DNA of 23,518 bases from the IMG/VR virus record IMGVR_UViG_3300025082_000073, positions 1 to 23,518 of that record; one strand, written 5' to 3'. The stretch's first letter is position 1. Each line of letters begins with the position of its first letter. Origin of the DNA: a virus. This document shows, in pieces, positions 3,023-19,061 of the stretch. The position numbers and the translations under genes are program-made. A model generated the notes under the pieces. It ran no database searches. It saw only the letters and a program-made list of their open reading frames with translations, and had not been told where the DNA came from.

Positions 3023-3826
3023 CTATGGTAATTGGAAGGTTAATTCAACGTATAAACCTTTTGCTGCTGTGGTTGATACTGCGTCTACATCTATTCTAAT
3101 GCTATCAGCGGTTGCTACATCATCATTAGCTGCGTCAATAACGGCTGGTGTAGCTGCGGTGCTAGTGTCAGTTTCAGTACTATCAATGGTCATTACAGTT
3201 GACAACATATCGGCTGCTTGAGTAACATTGTGTACTTGTACATCTGTTGTGTTTGTAGTACCTGCAGTCTGCACTTGAGCTGCGACAGCAACAAGATTCC
3301 ATCCATTCATCACAGCAGGGATTCTAACAAAGACATCACCAGCTCCATCACCTGTGGCTGTATCAGTAGCATCATCAAAAACTAATATACCAATTACACG
3401 TTTACCATAGTCACTTCCAGCTAATCCATCAGGGCTAACCGCTCTTCCAGCGTCAGTTCCTGTGGTTGTTTCTGCACCTGTGGCTACTTCAATTTTACCA
3501 GCAGTTGTTAAGTTAGCAGCACTCACAACAGCATCTACATCACCAGCTGTTACCGTCCCTACAGTATCTATATTTGCTGAACCTTGATAGCCATCTTTCA
3601 ATCCATCAGGAGTGACAGCTCTTCCAGCGTCGGTGCCAGTTGTAGTTTCTGCGGTAGTAGCAAGCTCTACTTTACCTTTAACAGTAACAGAAGAATCAGG
3701 AATAAGATTATCCTGAGTTATTTTTTTAGTTACTGCTGTACCAGACGGATCATCAACAATCGCCACCAAATCCGATGAGTCAACACTTGCTAGTTCTGTT
3801 AATCCTGTAATTTTTGAATCAGCCAT
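3023..3826 (-). CDS. Tail fibre protein with tandem repeat
   Basis: A 267-residue protein. The N-terminal segment (residues 1-45, with KITGLTEL and DDPSGTAVTKKIT) is typical of the shaft start of phage fibre proteins. Two imperfect copies of a motif ending AETTTGTDAGRAV(T/S)PDGL follow, about 60 residues apart, a repeat widely seen in tail fibres. The C-terminal about 100 residues form a Thr/Ala/Val-rich beta domain ending in VELTFQLP. The matching DNA repeats are near 3427-3480 and 3603-3655. Together with the LamG-like gene next to it, it probably builds the host-recognition fibre. The receptor is unknown. Confidence 0.75.
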   Translation of the reverse strand: MADSKITGLTELASVDSSDLVAIVDDPSGTAVTKKITQDNLIPDSSVTVKGKVELATTAETTTGTDAGRAVTPDGLKDGYQGSANIDTVGTVTAGDVDAVVSAANLTTAGKIEVATGAETTTGTDAGRAVSPDGLAGSDYGKRVIGILVFDDATDTATGDGAGDVFVRIPAVMNGWNLVAVAAQVQTAGTTNTTDVQVHNVTQAADMLSTVMTIDSTETDTSTAATPAVIDAANDDVATADSIRIDVDAVSTTAAKGLYVELTFQLP

Positions 3827-3828
3827 AT

Positions 3829-4038
3829 TTAGGAAGGTTTAGAATCATTAGTATAAGTACTAGAACCAGCAGTAAGTATAATCTTGTCTCCTGTTTCTTG
3901 TAAGAGAAAATCACCAGTTTCTAGTAAAAGAAAGGTAAAAAAACCGCCTTCTGAATCATTCGTATAGCTATCTGCGGATGGTTCTGAGTCATTTGAATAA
4001 CTACCTGCAGAGGGCTTTGTGTCATTCGAATAAGCCAT
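3829..4038 (-). CDS. 69-residue Y(S/T)NDS-repeat virion-associated protein
   Basis: A small protein with four copies of a Y(S/T)ND(S/T)-type unit, three at the N-terminus about 11 residues apart and one at the C-terminus. They flank a hydrophobic pair of repeats (LLLETGDFLL, LQETGDKIIL). The layout is a short repetitive beta structure around a self-similar hairpin. It lies 1-2 nt from the fibre gene and the neck gene. No family function is known to me. A virion or fibre-linker role follows only from position. Confidence 0.6.
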   Translation of the reverse strand: MAYSNDTKPSAGSYSNDSEPSADSYTNDSEGGFFTFLLLETGDFLLQETGDKIILTAGSSTYTNDSKPS

Positions 4039-4775: not shown

Positions 4776-5120
4776 TTAGATTACTATAAACATTATATGA
4801 AGACCCGTGGTGGACCCAATTGCGTAAAGTTTATTAACATTATCAATAGGAATAAAAACAGTATCATTACCAACAATTGCATAACCATCTGTAGTGACAG
4901 CACCACCTAGTACAGTTACATCAGAATTACCAAGATACACAATATTTGTTGTATTACCTGGGGAAGCTTTTACCCAAACACCTCTTTTGGCAGGTAAATC
5001 TAAAGCAGTAACTTGCACAGCAGATGCCCCAATATTTAACTTTGATCCATGATCAAAAGCGTTGGCGGCATCTTCATTAACTTGAATATTTCCTTCCCCA
5101 TCAAATTTTGGTTGTGGCAT
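4776..5120 (-). CDS. Small beta-rich structural protein
   Basis: A 114-residue first gene of the tail operon, starting 18 nt after the T-tract of the terminator at 5138-5164. A strand pattern (GVWVKASPGNTTNIVYLG, then TVFIPIDNVNKLYAIG and a hydrophobic end HIMFIVI) suggests a compact beta-barrel or sandwich. Similar small proteins often precede neck genes in phage structural modules and may be head decoration or stopper proteins. There are no catalytic residues, membrane segment or signal. The function is inferred only from place and fold impression. Confidence 0.55.
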   Translation of the reverse strand: MPQPKFDGEGNIQVNEDAANAFDHGSKLNIGASAVQVTALDLPAKRGVWVKASPGNTTNIVYLGNSDVTVLGGAVTTDGYAIVGNDTVFIPIDNVNKLYAIGSTTGLHIMFIVI

Positions 5121-5137
5121 AAATCTAGTGTTATTTT

Positions 5138-5164
5138 AAAAAAAAGGACAGCAAATTAGCTGTC
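5138..5164 (-). terminator. Intrinsic terminator after the glycan cassette
   Basis: On the minus strand a perfect 6-bp stem GACAGC/GCTGTC with loop TAATTT is followed by C and eight T residues. It is a textbook rho-independent terminator. It lies 10 nt after the stop of the dehydrogenase-like gene and upstream of the tail genes. Confidence 0.9.
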
Positions 5165-5174
5165 ATTGGTCTTT

Positions 5175-5855
5175 TTACCTTTTTTTGACTAATTCAAGTA
5201 TATCATTTTTCTCTTCACTGTCAAGTAAACTCGCATTTTGTAAAATACAATGTCCACCTATTGGTCCAATCATATATTTTAATACAGGCCGTATAACATG
5301 ATCCATACCTAATTCAGAGTATCCTTTGTTGTATGTTTCATTGAAATGAGTATAAGCAAGATCAAAGTCAACATCATGTTCAACACACCATTTCTTAATC
5401 TCTTTGTTAAGCATTATAAAAAATCCATACTGTGTTGTACTCCATAGCTTACCTGCTTCAATGGAATTAACATCTTCAGTAACAAATGTCTCAATACCTA
5501 TCTCTTCAAAGTACTTAGCTGCTTTCTTGGCATCTTTTCCTCCAAAGTACTTAGTAAAAGTCCTAATCCCATTTTCCAAATGAGGATGTATACCTCTGAT
5601 TGGTGAATGGACAGCTCCTAGCTGCTTACATGTGCCTACTGGGACAGTACTATGAATGATAGTAATCTTTGGTTTAAATTGTTCTTTGTAACCCTCAACA
5701 ATACTAATAAAGTTATCAGCGTAAGGAATACAGATGTGCATTACTTCACATTCTCCAACAAAGATAATATCTTGGAAGGGGTCATGGACAGTTGAATCCA
5801 AAATAGCTTTCAATCCTTTACCTACCTCACCGTACCCCACAATTAAATGTTTCAT
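5175..5855 (-). CDS. Short nucleotide-sugar dehydrogenase-like protein (UGDH superfamily)
   Basis: A 226-residue protein counted from the ATG at 5855. An N-terminal Rossmann motif GYGEVG (7-12) binds NAD(P). STVPVGT (69-75) and an Asn-x3-Glu-Ala-Gly-Lys-Leu stretch (130-136) match landmarks of UDP-glucose/GDP-mannose dehydrogenases. GGHC (200-203) mimics the GG-x-C segment around their catalytic cysteine. Normal family members are about 400-450 residues, so the C-terminal UDP-binding domain is missing. It may oxidise a nucleotide sugar or be a divergent remnant. It is last in the glycan cassette and overlaps the aminotransferase. An ATG at 5873 would add six residues; I prefer 5855 because the Rossmann strand starts there. 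Confidence 0.7.
   Translation of the reverse strand: MKHLIVGYGEVGKGLKAILDSTVHDPFQDIIFVGECEVMHICIPYADNFISIVEGYKEQFKPKITIIHSTVPVGTCKQLGAVHSPIRGIHPHLENGIRTFTKYFGGKDAKKAAKYFEEIGIETFVTEDVNSIEAGKLWSTTQYGFFIMLNKEIKKWCVEHDVDFDLAYTHFNETYNKGYSELGMDHVIRPVLKYMIGPIGGHCILQNASLLDSEEKNDILELVKKR
5197..5224 (-). promoter_or_regulatory. Sigma70-type promoter inside the 3' end of the dehydrogenase-like gene
   Basis: On the minus strand TTGACA (5219-5224), a 16-nt spacer and TATACT (5197-5202) match the -35/-10 consensus 6/6 and 5/6. It points towards the tail genes but lies upstream of the terminator at 5138-5164. Confidence 0.6.
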
Positions 5856-12334: not shown

Positions 12335-12680
12335 ATGTTTTTTGCATTTTTTTAATAAATGGTAGTTCTGTTAACTTATCCTTTGCGGGCAAACGTCCAT
12401 CCTTGATAGCTTTATCTATCTCAACATCTAAATATTTGTTGTATCTCTTCTCCATCTTTTTACTTACTTCGTACTCAACCTTTGAAAGAAGTCCAGAATC
12501 CATCAATCTTTGTAGTCTTTCTTTCTTTACATCACTGATATCATCACTTTCAAGGGCTTTACCTATTACGAACTCTAATTCTGGTGATTTCTTATGTTCT
12601 GTTATCAGAGCATCCTTTAATTCTTGAGGGACATTATCTTGTATCTCCTTTAGAACCTTCTCTATTTTTTTTCTATTCAT
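12309..12680 (-). CDS. Charged helical protein downstream of capsid, unknown
   Basis: A 123-residue protein, very rich in Lys, Glu and Asp and predicted by eye as almost all helix (KKIEKVLKEIQDN, then VSKKMEKRYNKYLDVEIDKAIKDG). It has no cysteine and no membrane segment. It follows another small gene with an ATGA overlap and lies two genes after the major capsid gene. Possible roles are head completion, a minor capsid component or a glycosylation acceptor/adaptor; none is supported by a motif. Confidence 0.55.
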   Translation of the reverse strand: MNRKKIEKVLKEIQDNVPQELKDALITEHKKSPELEFVIGKALESDDISDVKKERLQRLMDSGLLSKVEYEVSKKMEKRYNKYLDVEIDKAIKDGRLPAKDKLTELPFIKKMQKTYDEQKRTA

Positions 12681-12997
12681 ACTCTTTTATTCATATAGTT
12701 AGCCCCATTCCCATAGACATTAACTACTTTAGGAACTTGTAAATTACCTCTTGCTACTTCTAGTTCCTCCTTTTTACCTAGATCTATCCTAGCTAAAGCA
12801 GCCACCTGTCCTTCCTCTTGAAAGATTTTATGGGCTTCTTGTACAGCTTTAAAAAAGGTTTTTCCATCAGAAACACCTACTTGTTTAAACTTATTATGAA
12901 TTTTGGATGCTTCCCTCTCCTCTACTTCGATGATGCTCCCATTAGGTCTTTCATAAAAGAATGTCTTTTTTGGGGGTTCGAGTTTATGTACTTGCAT
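12677..12997 (-). CDS. Small protein directly after the capsid gene, unknown
   Basis: A 106-residue protein. The N-terminal part has a strand pair around FFYERPNGSIIEVEE (13-27). The middle is a helix (KTFFKAVQEAHKIFQEEGQVAALA), and the tail is Asn/Gly-rich. The ATG directly abuts the 54-nt inverted-repeat element, so its initiation region would lie at the base of that RNA structure. It is the first gene after the major capsid gene. A head-associated role is plausible from position only. Confidence 0.55.
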   Translation of the reverse strand: MQVHKLEPPKKTFFYERPNGSIIEVEEREASKIHNKFKQVGVSDGKTFFKAVQEAHKIFQEEGQVAALARIDLGKKEELEVARGNLQVPKVVNVYGNGANYMNKRV

Positions 12998-13051
12998 AAA
13001 TTGTTTCCATTACGTTGGCTTCTCCGTAATGGTAGAGAAGCCAAACAATTT
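12998..13051 (-). promoter_or_regulatory. 54-nt element of three interleaved perfect inverted repeats
   Basis: On the minus strand the order is AAATTGTTT, GGCTTCTC, TA, CCATTACG, GAGAAGCC, AA, CGTAATGG, AAACAATTT. The outer pair (9 bp), GGCTTCTC/GAGAAGCC (8 bp) and CCATTACG/CGTAATGG (8 bp) are all perfect. The two inner stems interleave, so they are either mutually exclusive hairpins or a strained H-type pseudoknot closed by the outer stem. The element starts 7 nt after the capsid stop and ends exactly at the next start codon. It has no T-tract, so it is not a normal terminator. A role in mRNA stability or translation control is inferred. Confidence 0.85.
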
Positions 13052-13058
13052 GCAATCC

Positions 13059-13988
13059 TTATGAGCCAAGGAAAGCAGATGATGCGTTCATCAAAACTCC
13101 ACCTGGTTCTCTCAAGACAGCTACTCCGTAGTTGATGTCAACTACAACTAGCAAGCCAAGATTTTGAACTAGATTATCTGATTGAACACGAACCTTTCCA
13201 CCACCTTTTGTCTGTAGCGCAAAGCCAAGACAAGACTGGTGAAGAAGCAGGTTACGATAAGTTTGTAGACCAGATACAACATTAGATGTTGTATATACAG
13301 GGATACCATACAAGAACCCACGAAGAGCTCGCTCCATTGCTGGAGAACGGAAGTTACCTGTTACGACCATACCAGCTTCATTAGCTGGACCTTTGATGGA
13401 CTGATCGTAGTATTTTGCAATAGCATGAAGCTGATTCCAGTATACGTAAGGATGTACAAAGAATGCACATTCAGTAAGATCGTAGTTAGTAGTATCAAGT
13501 TTTTCGATTGATTGACGTACTTCTGCATCTGAAAGAACTGTTGCAGTATCACCAACTGTATTAGTTGTGATAGAGCTCCAAAGAGCTGCAAGACTGTCTT
13601 CAAGTTCGTCAGCAAGCACAGATGATGCTTGTTTAGTATACTTCTGAACCATGTCGTATTTTGTAGCAATAGCAGTTAGGTCAGCGTCACCAATCAAGAA
13701 AGCAACGTACTTGTGTGTATTGATTGTCAAAGTAGTATCAACTGATGCAGGAGCGTCAGTTGTTACTTCTGCACCTTGTGTAGACTGTGTCTGAGCACTA
13801 AAGATATTAGTGTAGATGTCTGGTACATGGAAGATATCACCGCCTTGTGTAGCAAATGATGAAAGATCTGTAACGAAGTTGGCAAGTACAGTTTTAGCAA
13901 AAAATGCTTCGTTAACCATAGGTGTCCAGATCTCAGGGATCACCGCTACCAACTCTGTTGAGTCAAATGGGTCTGTTGTTACAGCCAT
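13059..13988 (-). CDS. Major capsid protein (HK97-fold type)
   Basis: A 309-residue protein with the usual features of phage coat proteins. The N-terminal region starts with TELVAVIPEIWTPMVNEAFF, and a beta strand IFHVPDI follows. The long spine helix lies near residues 105-140 (DADLTAIATKYDMVQKYTKQ, then LADELEDSLAALW). P-domain and A-domain strands come next (CAFFVHPYVYWNQL, GFLYGIPVYTTSNV), and the C-terminal LLVVVDINYGVAVLREPGGV is typical. It forms the icosahedral shell on the scaffold encoded just upstream. Codon choice looks somewhat richer in C/G-ending codons than its neighbours, as expected for a highly expressed gene. It lacks a clear SD site; the ATG lies 11 nt after the scaffold stop. 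Confidence 0.9.
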   Translation of the reverse strand: MAVTTDPFDSTELVAVIPEIWTPMVNEAFFAKTVLANFVTDLSSFATQGGDIFHVPDIYTNIFSAQTQSTQGAEVTTDAPASVDTTLTINTHKYVAFLIGDADLTAIATKYDMVQKYTKQASSVLADELEDSLAALWSSITTNTVGDTATVLSDAEVRQSIEKLDTTNYDLTECAFFVHPYVYWNQLHAIAKYYDQSIKGPANEAGMVVTGNFRSPAMERALRGFLYGIPVYTTSNVVSGLQTYRNLLLHQSCLGFALQTKGGGKVRVQSDNLVQNLGLLVVVDINYGVAVLREPGGVLMNASSAFLGS

Positions 13989-18971: not shown

Positions 18972-18983
18972 AAGCAGCTGACC

Positions 18984-19057
18984 TGCAAGCGATCGGAGTC
19001 GAACCGATAACCATCGGCTGTGTCTTCAGCCTACTCTTCCAATTGAGCTACGCCTGC
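18984..19057 (-). tRNA. tRNA with irregular anticodon loop, identity uncertain
   Basis: A 74-nt cloverleaf. The acceptor is GCAGGCG/CGCTTGC (7 bp, one G-U) with A73; TA at positions 8-9; D-arm GCTC-AATTGGAA-GAGT; T-arm ATCGG-TTCGACT-CCGAT (5 bp). CCA is not encoded. The anticodon arm GGCTG/CAGCC leaves only a 6-nt loop, AAGACA, without the usual T33, and the variable region has 7 nt. GAC (Val) is the central triplet of that loop, while a GAA (Phe) reading breaks the stem. It may be decayed, carry an indel or be a tRNA-like structure. Confidence 0.75.
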
Positions 19058-19061
19058 AAAG

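Follow-up and report, generated by a model that had tools for sequence, protein, structure and literature searches.

The stretch of DNA analysed here, which we call the window, comprises 23,518 nt of IMG/VR virus record IMGVR_UViG_3300025082_000073 (positions 1 to 23,518). Between the stop codon of its major capsid gene and the ATG of the following gene, dn1, lies a 54-nt element on the minus strand (12998-13051). Every gene around it is encoded on that same strand, which makes the RNA of interest the window's reverse complement. Read on the mRNA strand, the element is 5'-AAATTGTTT GGCTTCTC TA CCATTACG GAGAAGCC AA CGTAATGG AAACAATTT-3', with the ATG directly after it, and its parts are ordered O5–S1a–TA–S2a–S1b–AA–S2b–O3, that is, an outer 9-bp stem (O) around two crossing 8-bp stems (S1 and S2). 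The features, in mRNA order, are:

13059-13988, minus strand: major capsid (head) protein gene, 309 aa (PHROG 267 major head protein, E 2e-15)
13052-13058, minus strand: 7-nt spacer from the capsid stop codon to the element (5 to ~50 nt in relatives, not conserved)
13043-13051, minus strand: 5' arm of outer stem O (AAATTGTTT), with an ATTGTT core that is invariant in closer members
13035-13042, minus strand: S1a (GGCTTCTC), 5' arm of the stronger inner stem
13025-13032, minus strand: S2a (CCATTACG), 5' arm of the crossing stem, which is the apical loop of S1
13017-13024, minus strand: S1b (GAGAAGCC), 3' arm of S1
13007-13014, minus strand: S2b (CGTAATGG), 3' arm of S2
12998-13006, minus strand: 3' arm of outer stem O (AAACAATTT), immediately 5' of the dn1 ATG
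12677-12997, minus strand: dn1, 106-aa gene 3' of the element, with relatives behind the element or a terminator in most related phages

An earlier note on this DNA had described three interleaved perfect inverted repeats at 12998-13051, and all of its coordinates hold: all three stems are perfect over the lengths given (S1 reaches 10 bp when the flanking TT/AA is counted), the linkers are TA, 0 nt and AA, and 0 nt separate the outer stem from either inner stem. Folding of the mRNA strand with pseudoknots left out gives O plus S1 as the minimum, and the folding z-score is -4.0 for 91 nt of the plus strand, which carries the same inverted repeats. The element lacks a T-tract or any other T-run, and a terminator scan reported no site there, so that, as the note had held, it is not a standard terminator. 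We found no family match for dn1 in the libraries searched.

The note had also claimed that the element exactly fills the gap between the capsid stop and the next start codon. The distances are as it described, 7 nt from the capsid stop codon, whose end is at 13059, to the element and 0 nt from the element to the dn1 ATG (12997-12995); the second distance is nevertheless normal spacing for this genome. Genes are packed 0-5 nt apart or overlap, with most start codons 0-5 nt past the previous stop, so that the 61-nt gap holding the element is an exception and the contact between element and ATG is not. Almost no gene in the window genome has a Shine-Dalgarno sequence. Elsewhere in the window, an island of 49% GC in this 36% GC genome (18841-19572, minus strand) carries two small reading frames behind AAGGAG/AGGAG-like sites, unlike the other genes of the genome, and a tRNA (18983-19058) whose anticodon is unreadable; the island is strongly folded (z -4.7), and no relatives of it were found in named phages.

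Taken alone, the window sequence makes a chance origin of the element suggestively unlikely. None of 300 shuffles of the local 120 nt yielded a triple of such stems; 65 dinucleotide shuffles of the whole window yielded 19 looser, wobble-containing matches, with a maximum of 24 bp against 25-26 bp in the real sequence. Conservation in relatives removes chance as an explanation. Queries for relatives were the capsid protein and alignments of it, plus the glycosyltransferase-like protein encoded downstream and the portal-like protein; together they recovered ~40 different contigs that carry the capsid gene. In 17 distinct phages, counting the window itself, the capsid gene and dn1 are separated by the ordered triple. 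Fourteen of these were identified by a mechanical scan (the window, L001, L003, L006, L007, L012, L016, L020, L022, L029, L083, L099, L117 and L119, with L004 and L005 counted as L003, L013 with L012, and L021 with L022), and three, with small imperfections, by eye (L002, L049 and L130; the capsid protein of L130 is 37% identical to the nearest query). With both strands of the loci scanned, the element occurs once per genome, and other matches score clearly lower; the exception is L100, which has one 22-bp scan match at a locus without a capsid gene. One member, L007, has an extra gene of ~120 aa (about 5073-5435) between the capsid gene and the element, which there still precedes dn1. This extra gene has no match in a Pfam search, and its product is perhaps a capsid partner encoded on the same message.

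Neither the capsid protein nor the downstream glycosyltransferase-like protein matched any named phage, and the terminase matches many phages at less than 60% identity (best, Flavobacterium phages, 42%). As a single-protein query against viral contigs, dn1 recovered no relatives; tblastn against the capsid loci shows it to be homologous among them, with dn1 relatives lying behind both the pseudoknot and the terminator types of slot described below. Outside the family, a search for the DNA pattern of outer stem plus ATG returned mostly one repeated sequence in many contigs and two singletons, with no crossing stems visible by eye. In three relatives the capsid gene itself is interrupted in an intron-like manner, at about codon 180 in L026 (6019-6704) and L027 (6541-7265; the same contig as L008) and at about codon 38 in L066 (about 3333-4000); Rfam gave no intron match.

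The sequences of S1 and S2 are unrelated between members, with almost no letters in common, and pairing is nonetheless maintained. When ten aligned members were scored for pairing in O, S1 and the crossing S2, 95.5% of paired cells were occupied by pairs, compared with 73% in shuffles and 38-46% when partners were slid by 1-3 columns. Two-sided compensatory cells numbered 57 (19.5 in shuffles), the covariation score was 0.60 (0.22 in shuffles), and none of 500 shuffles reached the real paired percentage, cell count or covariation score. Two-sided changes are found at 8 of 12 pairs in S1 and 7 of 8 in S2; L006 and L012 differ by a single such step, GCTTAT/ATAAGC versus GCTCAT/ATGAGC. Arms also pair far better within members than between them (-15.2 versus -4.7 kcal/mol for S1, and -7.8 versus -1.2 kcal/mol for S2). 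Thus, both crossing stems of the pseudoknot topology that the earlier note proposed are backed by compensatory change, the very feature whose absence from homologues it had taken as counting against the element. Since letters vary in S1 and S2 while pairing is kept, shape rather than sequence appears to matter; the sole constant letters are the ATTGTT of the outer 5' arm, in the closer group, and that arm differs in L083, L099 and L130. From this comparison of sequences, we consider it near certain that the element is a conserved pseudoknot RNA with all three stems under selection.

Non-Watson-Crick cells indicate which molecule folds. Counted on the mRNA strand there are 24 G·U and 3 A·C cells (the partition of L049 used in the energy and mismatch tallies is not verbatim to its sequence, in which S2 is 8 bp; this shifts the totals marginally). 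A DNA-level inverted-repeat site predicts equal numbers of G·T and A·C mismatches, and we therefore reject it; the excess of G·U shows that mRNA-sense RNA folds, rather than that double-stranded DNA serves as a site. The recombination site suggested in the earlier note is unlikely for the same reason.

The same slot behind the capsid gene holds an intrinsic terminator, a GC hairpin with a T-run, in ~13 relatives (L015, L017, L023-L027, L058, L096, L118, L122, L123 and others), most of which have a TATAAT-like hexamer 5-8 nt before the dn1 ATG, after the terminator. Among pseudoknot members, six have roughly 7-55 nt between the element and the dn1 ATG, and four of the six (L003, L006, L012 and L119) have TATAAT or TACAAT 6-8 nt before that ATG. 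In these four, dn1 has its own -10-like hexamer, so that the element there cannot serve the start of dn1 itself. The outer stem ends 0-2 nt from the ATG in nine members (the window, L001, L002, L007, L020, L022, L029, L083 and L117), and where the element abuts the ATG we found no good hexamer at that distance, except for a 5-of-6 match in L007, 4 nt from the ATG. A hexamer so close to the ATG looks as if the dn1 message were leaderless; scarce Shine-Dalgarno sequences, genes 0-5 nt apart and TATAAT 6-8 nt before the dn1 ATG in several relatives are as would be expected for leaderless messages.

On the capsid tree, lineages with the pseudoknot are mixed among those with the terminator; parsimony requires at least six changes, of which at least three are forced by well-supported branches in a tree with many unresolved forks. 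Given the shared slot and this mixing, the pseudoknot and the terminator seem to stand in for each other, filling a single role where the capsid message ends. Other relatives have further structures after the capsid gene. T-run terminators in L065, L067 and L069 (possibly also L115) have loops complementary over 8-11 bp to their own 5' flank; complementarity as good arose in 7 of 2000 shuffles for L065, 54 of 2000 for L067 and 2 of 2000 for L069, and was not significant for L115. In L065 and L069 the loop has two stretches that could pair, in crossing order, with two stretches upstream, and we predict that L065, L067, L069 and possibly L115 have pseudoknotted terminators in the slot. Read by eye, L068 and L093 have variant forms: the loop of a GC hairpin is able to pair with the sequence flanking it on the 3' side, but the linker is longer (6-7 nt) and no outer stem is clear.

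The form and position of the element, together with the terminator that takes its slot in sister lineages, lead us to infer, at about an even chance, that it is a pseudoknotted end block, free of a U-tract, that insulates and probably stabilises the capsid mRNA. The outer stem enclosing an H-type-like pseudoknot would be a cis-acting RNA of the late mRNA, placed between the capsid gene and dn1 and working as a mechanical roadblock through its shape, not its sequence. Such a roadblock would define the 3' side of the capsid message and guard it against exonucleases once the distal part of the mRNA has been processed or has decayed, as terminator hairpins do; these are known to protect bacterial mRNA 3' ends (PMC3997798). 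Because a pseudoknot resists unwinding, protection would perhaps be stronger, as described for xrRNA, whose fold mechanically stops bacterial RNase J1 (PMC5760640). The roadblock would also shield the genes behind it from the heavily translated capsid gene, in that fewer ribosomes leaving the capsid gene would run into dn1, giving less downstream product. Where no promoter follows the element, as in window-type lineages, RNA polymerase would have to pass at least partly, with downstream genes expressed from the same transcript at a lower level; an end of the message at that point in the window must then come from processing. Protection of the 3' end and the setting of product ratios are the readings we favour, and the extra gene upstream of the element in L007 is placed as if it were part of the protected unit. 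Protection of a 3' end leaves the need for the crossing stem unexplained, since a simple hairpin would provide it too. A bolder proposal, which we regard as doubtful though not negligible, is that this DNA phage carries a bacterial counterpart of xrRNA. The element would then be a pseudoknotted ring, largely independent of sequence, that mechanically stops ribonucleases, and perhaps scanning ribosomes, and has repeatedly been swapped with the capsid-gene terminator.

It is also possible, although rather unlikely, that the element controls translation of dn1, with the fold before the ATG keeping translation low or coupling it to ribosomes that end on the capsid gene. The nine members in which the outer stem lies within 2 nt of the ATG and the lack of Shine-Dalgarno sequences would fit such control, as would L007, in which the element stays with dn1 and not with the capsid stop. 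Against this, direct contact with a start codon is nothing unusual in this genome, and six members leave a gap before the ATG, which in four of them contains a promoter-like -10 box.

That the element is a U-tract-free or factor-aided transcription terminator or attenuator is in our view quite unlikely. Sister lineages do use the slot for an intrinsic terminator, L003 has a T-run shortly 3' of its element, and the terminators of L065, L067 and L069, with their flank-complementary loops, are real ones. Nonetheless, most members have no T-tract, and the class without a promoter needs polymerase to pass if dn1 is to be made. Moreover, the usual kind of terminator is available to this phage, since the window has an ordinary one at 5121-5174 (minus strand; GACAGC hairpin and T-run).

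We see a slim chance that the element binds a phage or host protein in autoregulation of the kind seen with T4 gp32 or ribosomal protein S15; pseudoknot operators are known in T4 gene 32 and rpsO (PMC3014915). The invariant ATTGTT, whose partner varies by G·U, hints at a role of sequence beyond pairing. Against this, letters in loops and junctions are not conserved, and three members have a different outer 5' arm.

The earlier note had favoured a two-state RNA switch between S1 and S2, on the ground that the linkers may be too short for both inner stems at once. The linkers do look tight (L1 mostly 2-5 nt, L3 0-3 nt, and 0 nt at the outer stem), and we examined them with a coarse model of rigid A-form helices that has chain-length and clash terms, takes the outer stem as 6 bp, and ignores electrostatics and the folding pathway. 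In this model the three stems coexist free of violations in three members (L003, L006 and L016); the window accommodates them with less than about 1 Å of strain at each junction or one frayed pair, and L022 with 1-2 frayed pairs. The exception is L130, in which S1, at ~20 positions, is too long for the other stems to form alongside it; in members with so long an S1, S2 might conceivably pair between two molecules, as a dimer. Coexistence thus appears geometrically possible in most members tested. The inner stems of the window are symmetric, and the energy difference between S1 and S2 is small there (2.5 kcal/mol) and in L001, L049, L083 and L016 (-0.9 to 3.9 kcal/mol), as a switch would have it; in seven members, by contrast, S1 alone is better than S2 alone by ~9-19 kcal/mol (L002, L006, L007, L022, L117, L119 and L130). 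Gaps this large in many members make a conserved thermodynamic switch very unlikely and weaken the preference expressed in the note. A single compact fold would be the simplest reading.

A further reading is that the pseudoknot stimulates programmed readthrough or frameshifting in the capsid gene, for which Listeria phage PSA, with a pseudoknot at its own capsid gene, is a precedent (PMC5009743). The 7 nt that separate stop codon and structure in the window are of a usual size for this. Yet the reading is contradicted, to the point of being hardly credible, by phase, spacing and open frames that are not conserved: the gap to dn1 is 0, 1 or 2 modulo 3 among members, the dn1 frame is closed in each of the 16 members examined, tandem stops occur in L001 and L119, and the spacer varies.

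Rfam searches with the element gave no match at the gathering score and none meaningful at E up to 10, xrRNA families included; with no Rfam match and no conservation of the inner letters, it does not resemble a riboswitch or a self-cleaving ribozyme. No capsid-associated pseudoknot of this form was found in the open-licence literature, a scope outside which a 2017 survey of 224 candidate RNAs falls, and a 2010 survey called structured elements in bacterial 3' UTRs highly unusual (Weinberg 2010; PMC2864571). REP-type and 3' terminator hairpin stabilisers of mRNA are alike in placing a structure right behind a highly expressed gene of an operon and in relying on shape more than sequence; these are simple hairpins, however, whereas the element has an outer stem and two crossing stems, with the crossing stem selected. 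The intrinsic terminators of sister phages share its location between the capsid gene and dn1 and a GC-rich hairpin as the strongest part, and the element differs from them in lacking a U-tract, in its second crossing stem and, often, in having no promoter after it. Like xrRNA, one of which stops RNase J1, it has a compact pseudoknotted fold that is thought to act mechanically; however, in the xrRNAs of mosquito-borne flaviviruses the core nucleotides are conserved and there is a three-way junction with a ring (PMC5760640), features that we do not see in the element, and these xrRNAs belong to RNA viruses, whereas the element is found in a DNA phage and its nuclease resistance is putative. The T4/T2 gene 32 operator is likewise an H-type pseudoknot in a phage mRNA, but it is located in its own gene's 5' leader, where gp32 binds it, whereas the element sits between genes and has an outer stem. 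Similarly, the STAXI motif is a pseudoknot-based candidate RNA of bacteria, but it occurs in tandem, close to genes that encode DNA-binding and integrase proteins (Weinberg 2010; PMC2864571), whereas the element is a single copy and is negative in Rfam. We rate the element as a new RNA structure family with a known kind of job.

The element combines strong comparative proof in an uncultured phage family with absence from every RNA library searched, and it is evolutionarily interchangeable with ordinary terminators. Its 17 natural variants form a test series for comparing a pseudoknot with a hairpin as a block to bacterial nucleases or ribosomes, and the element bears on how one operon yields far more capsid than neighbouring proteins.
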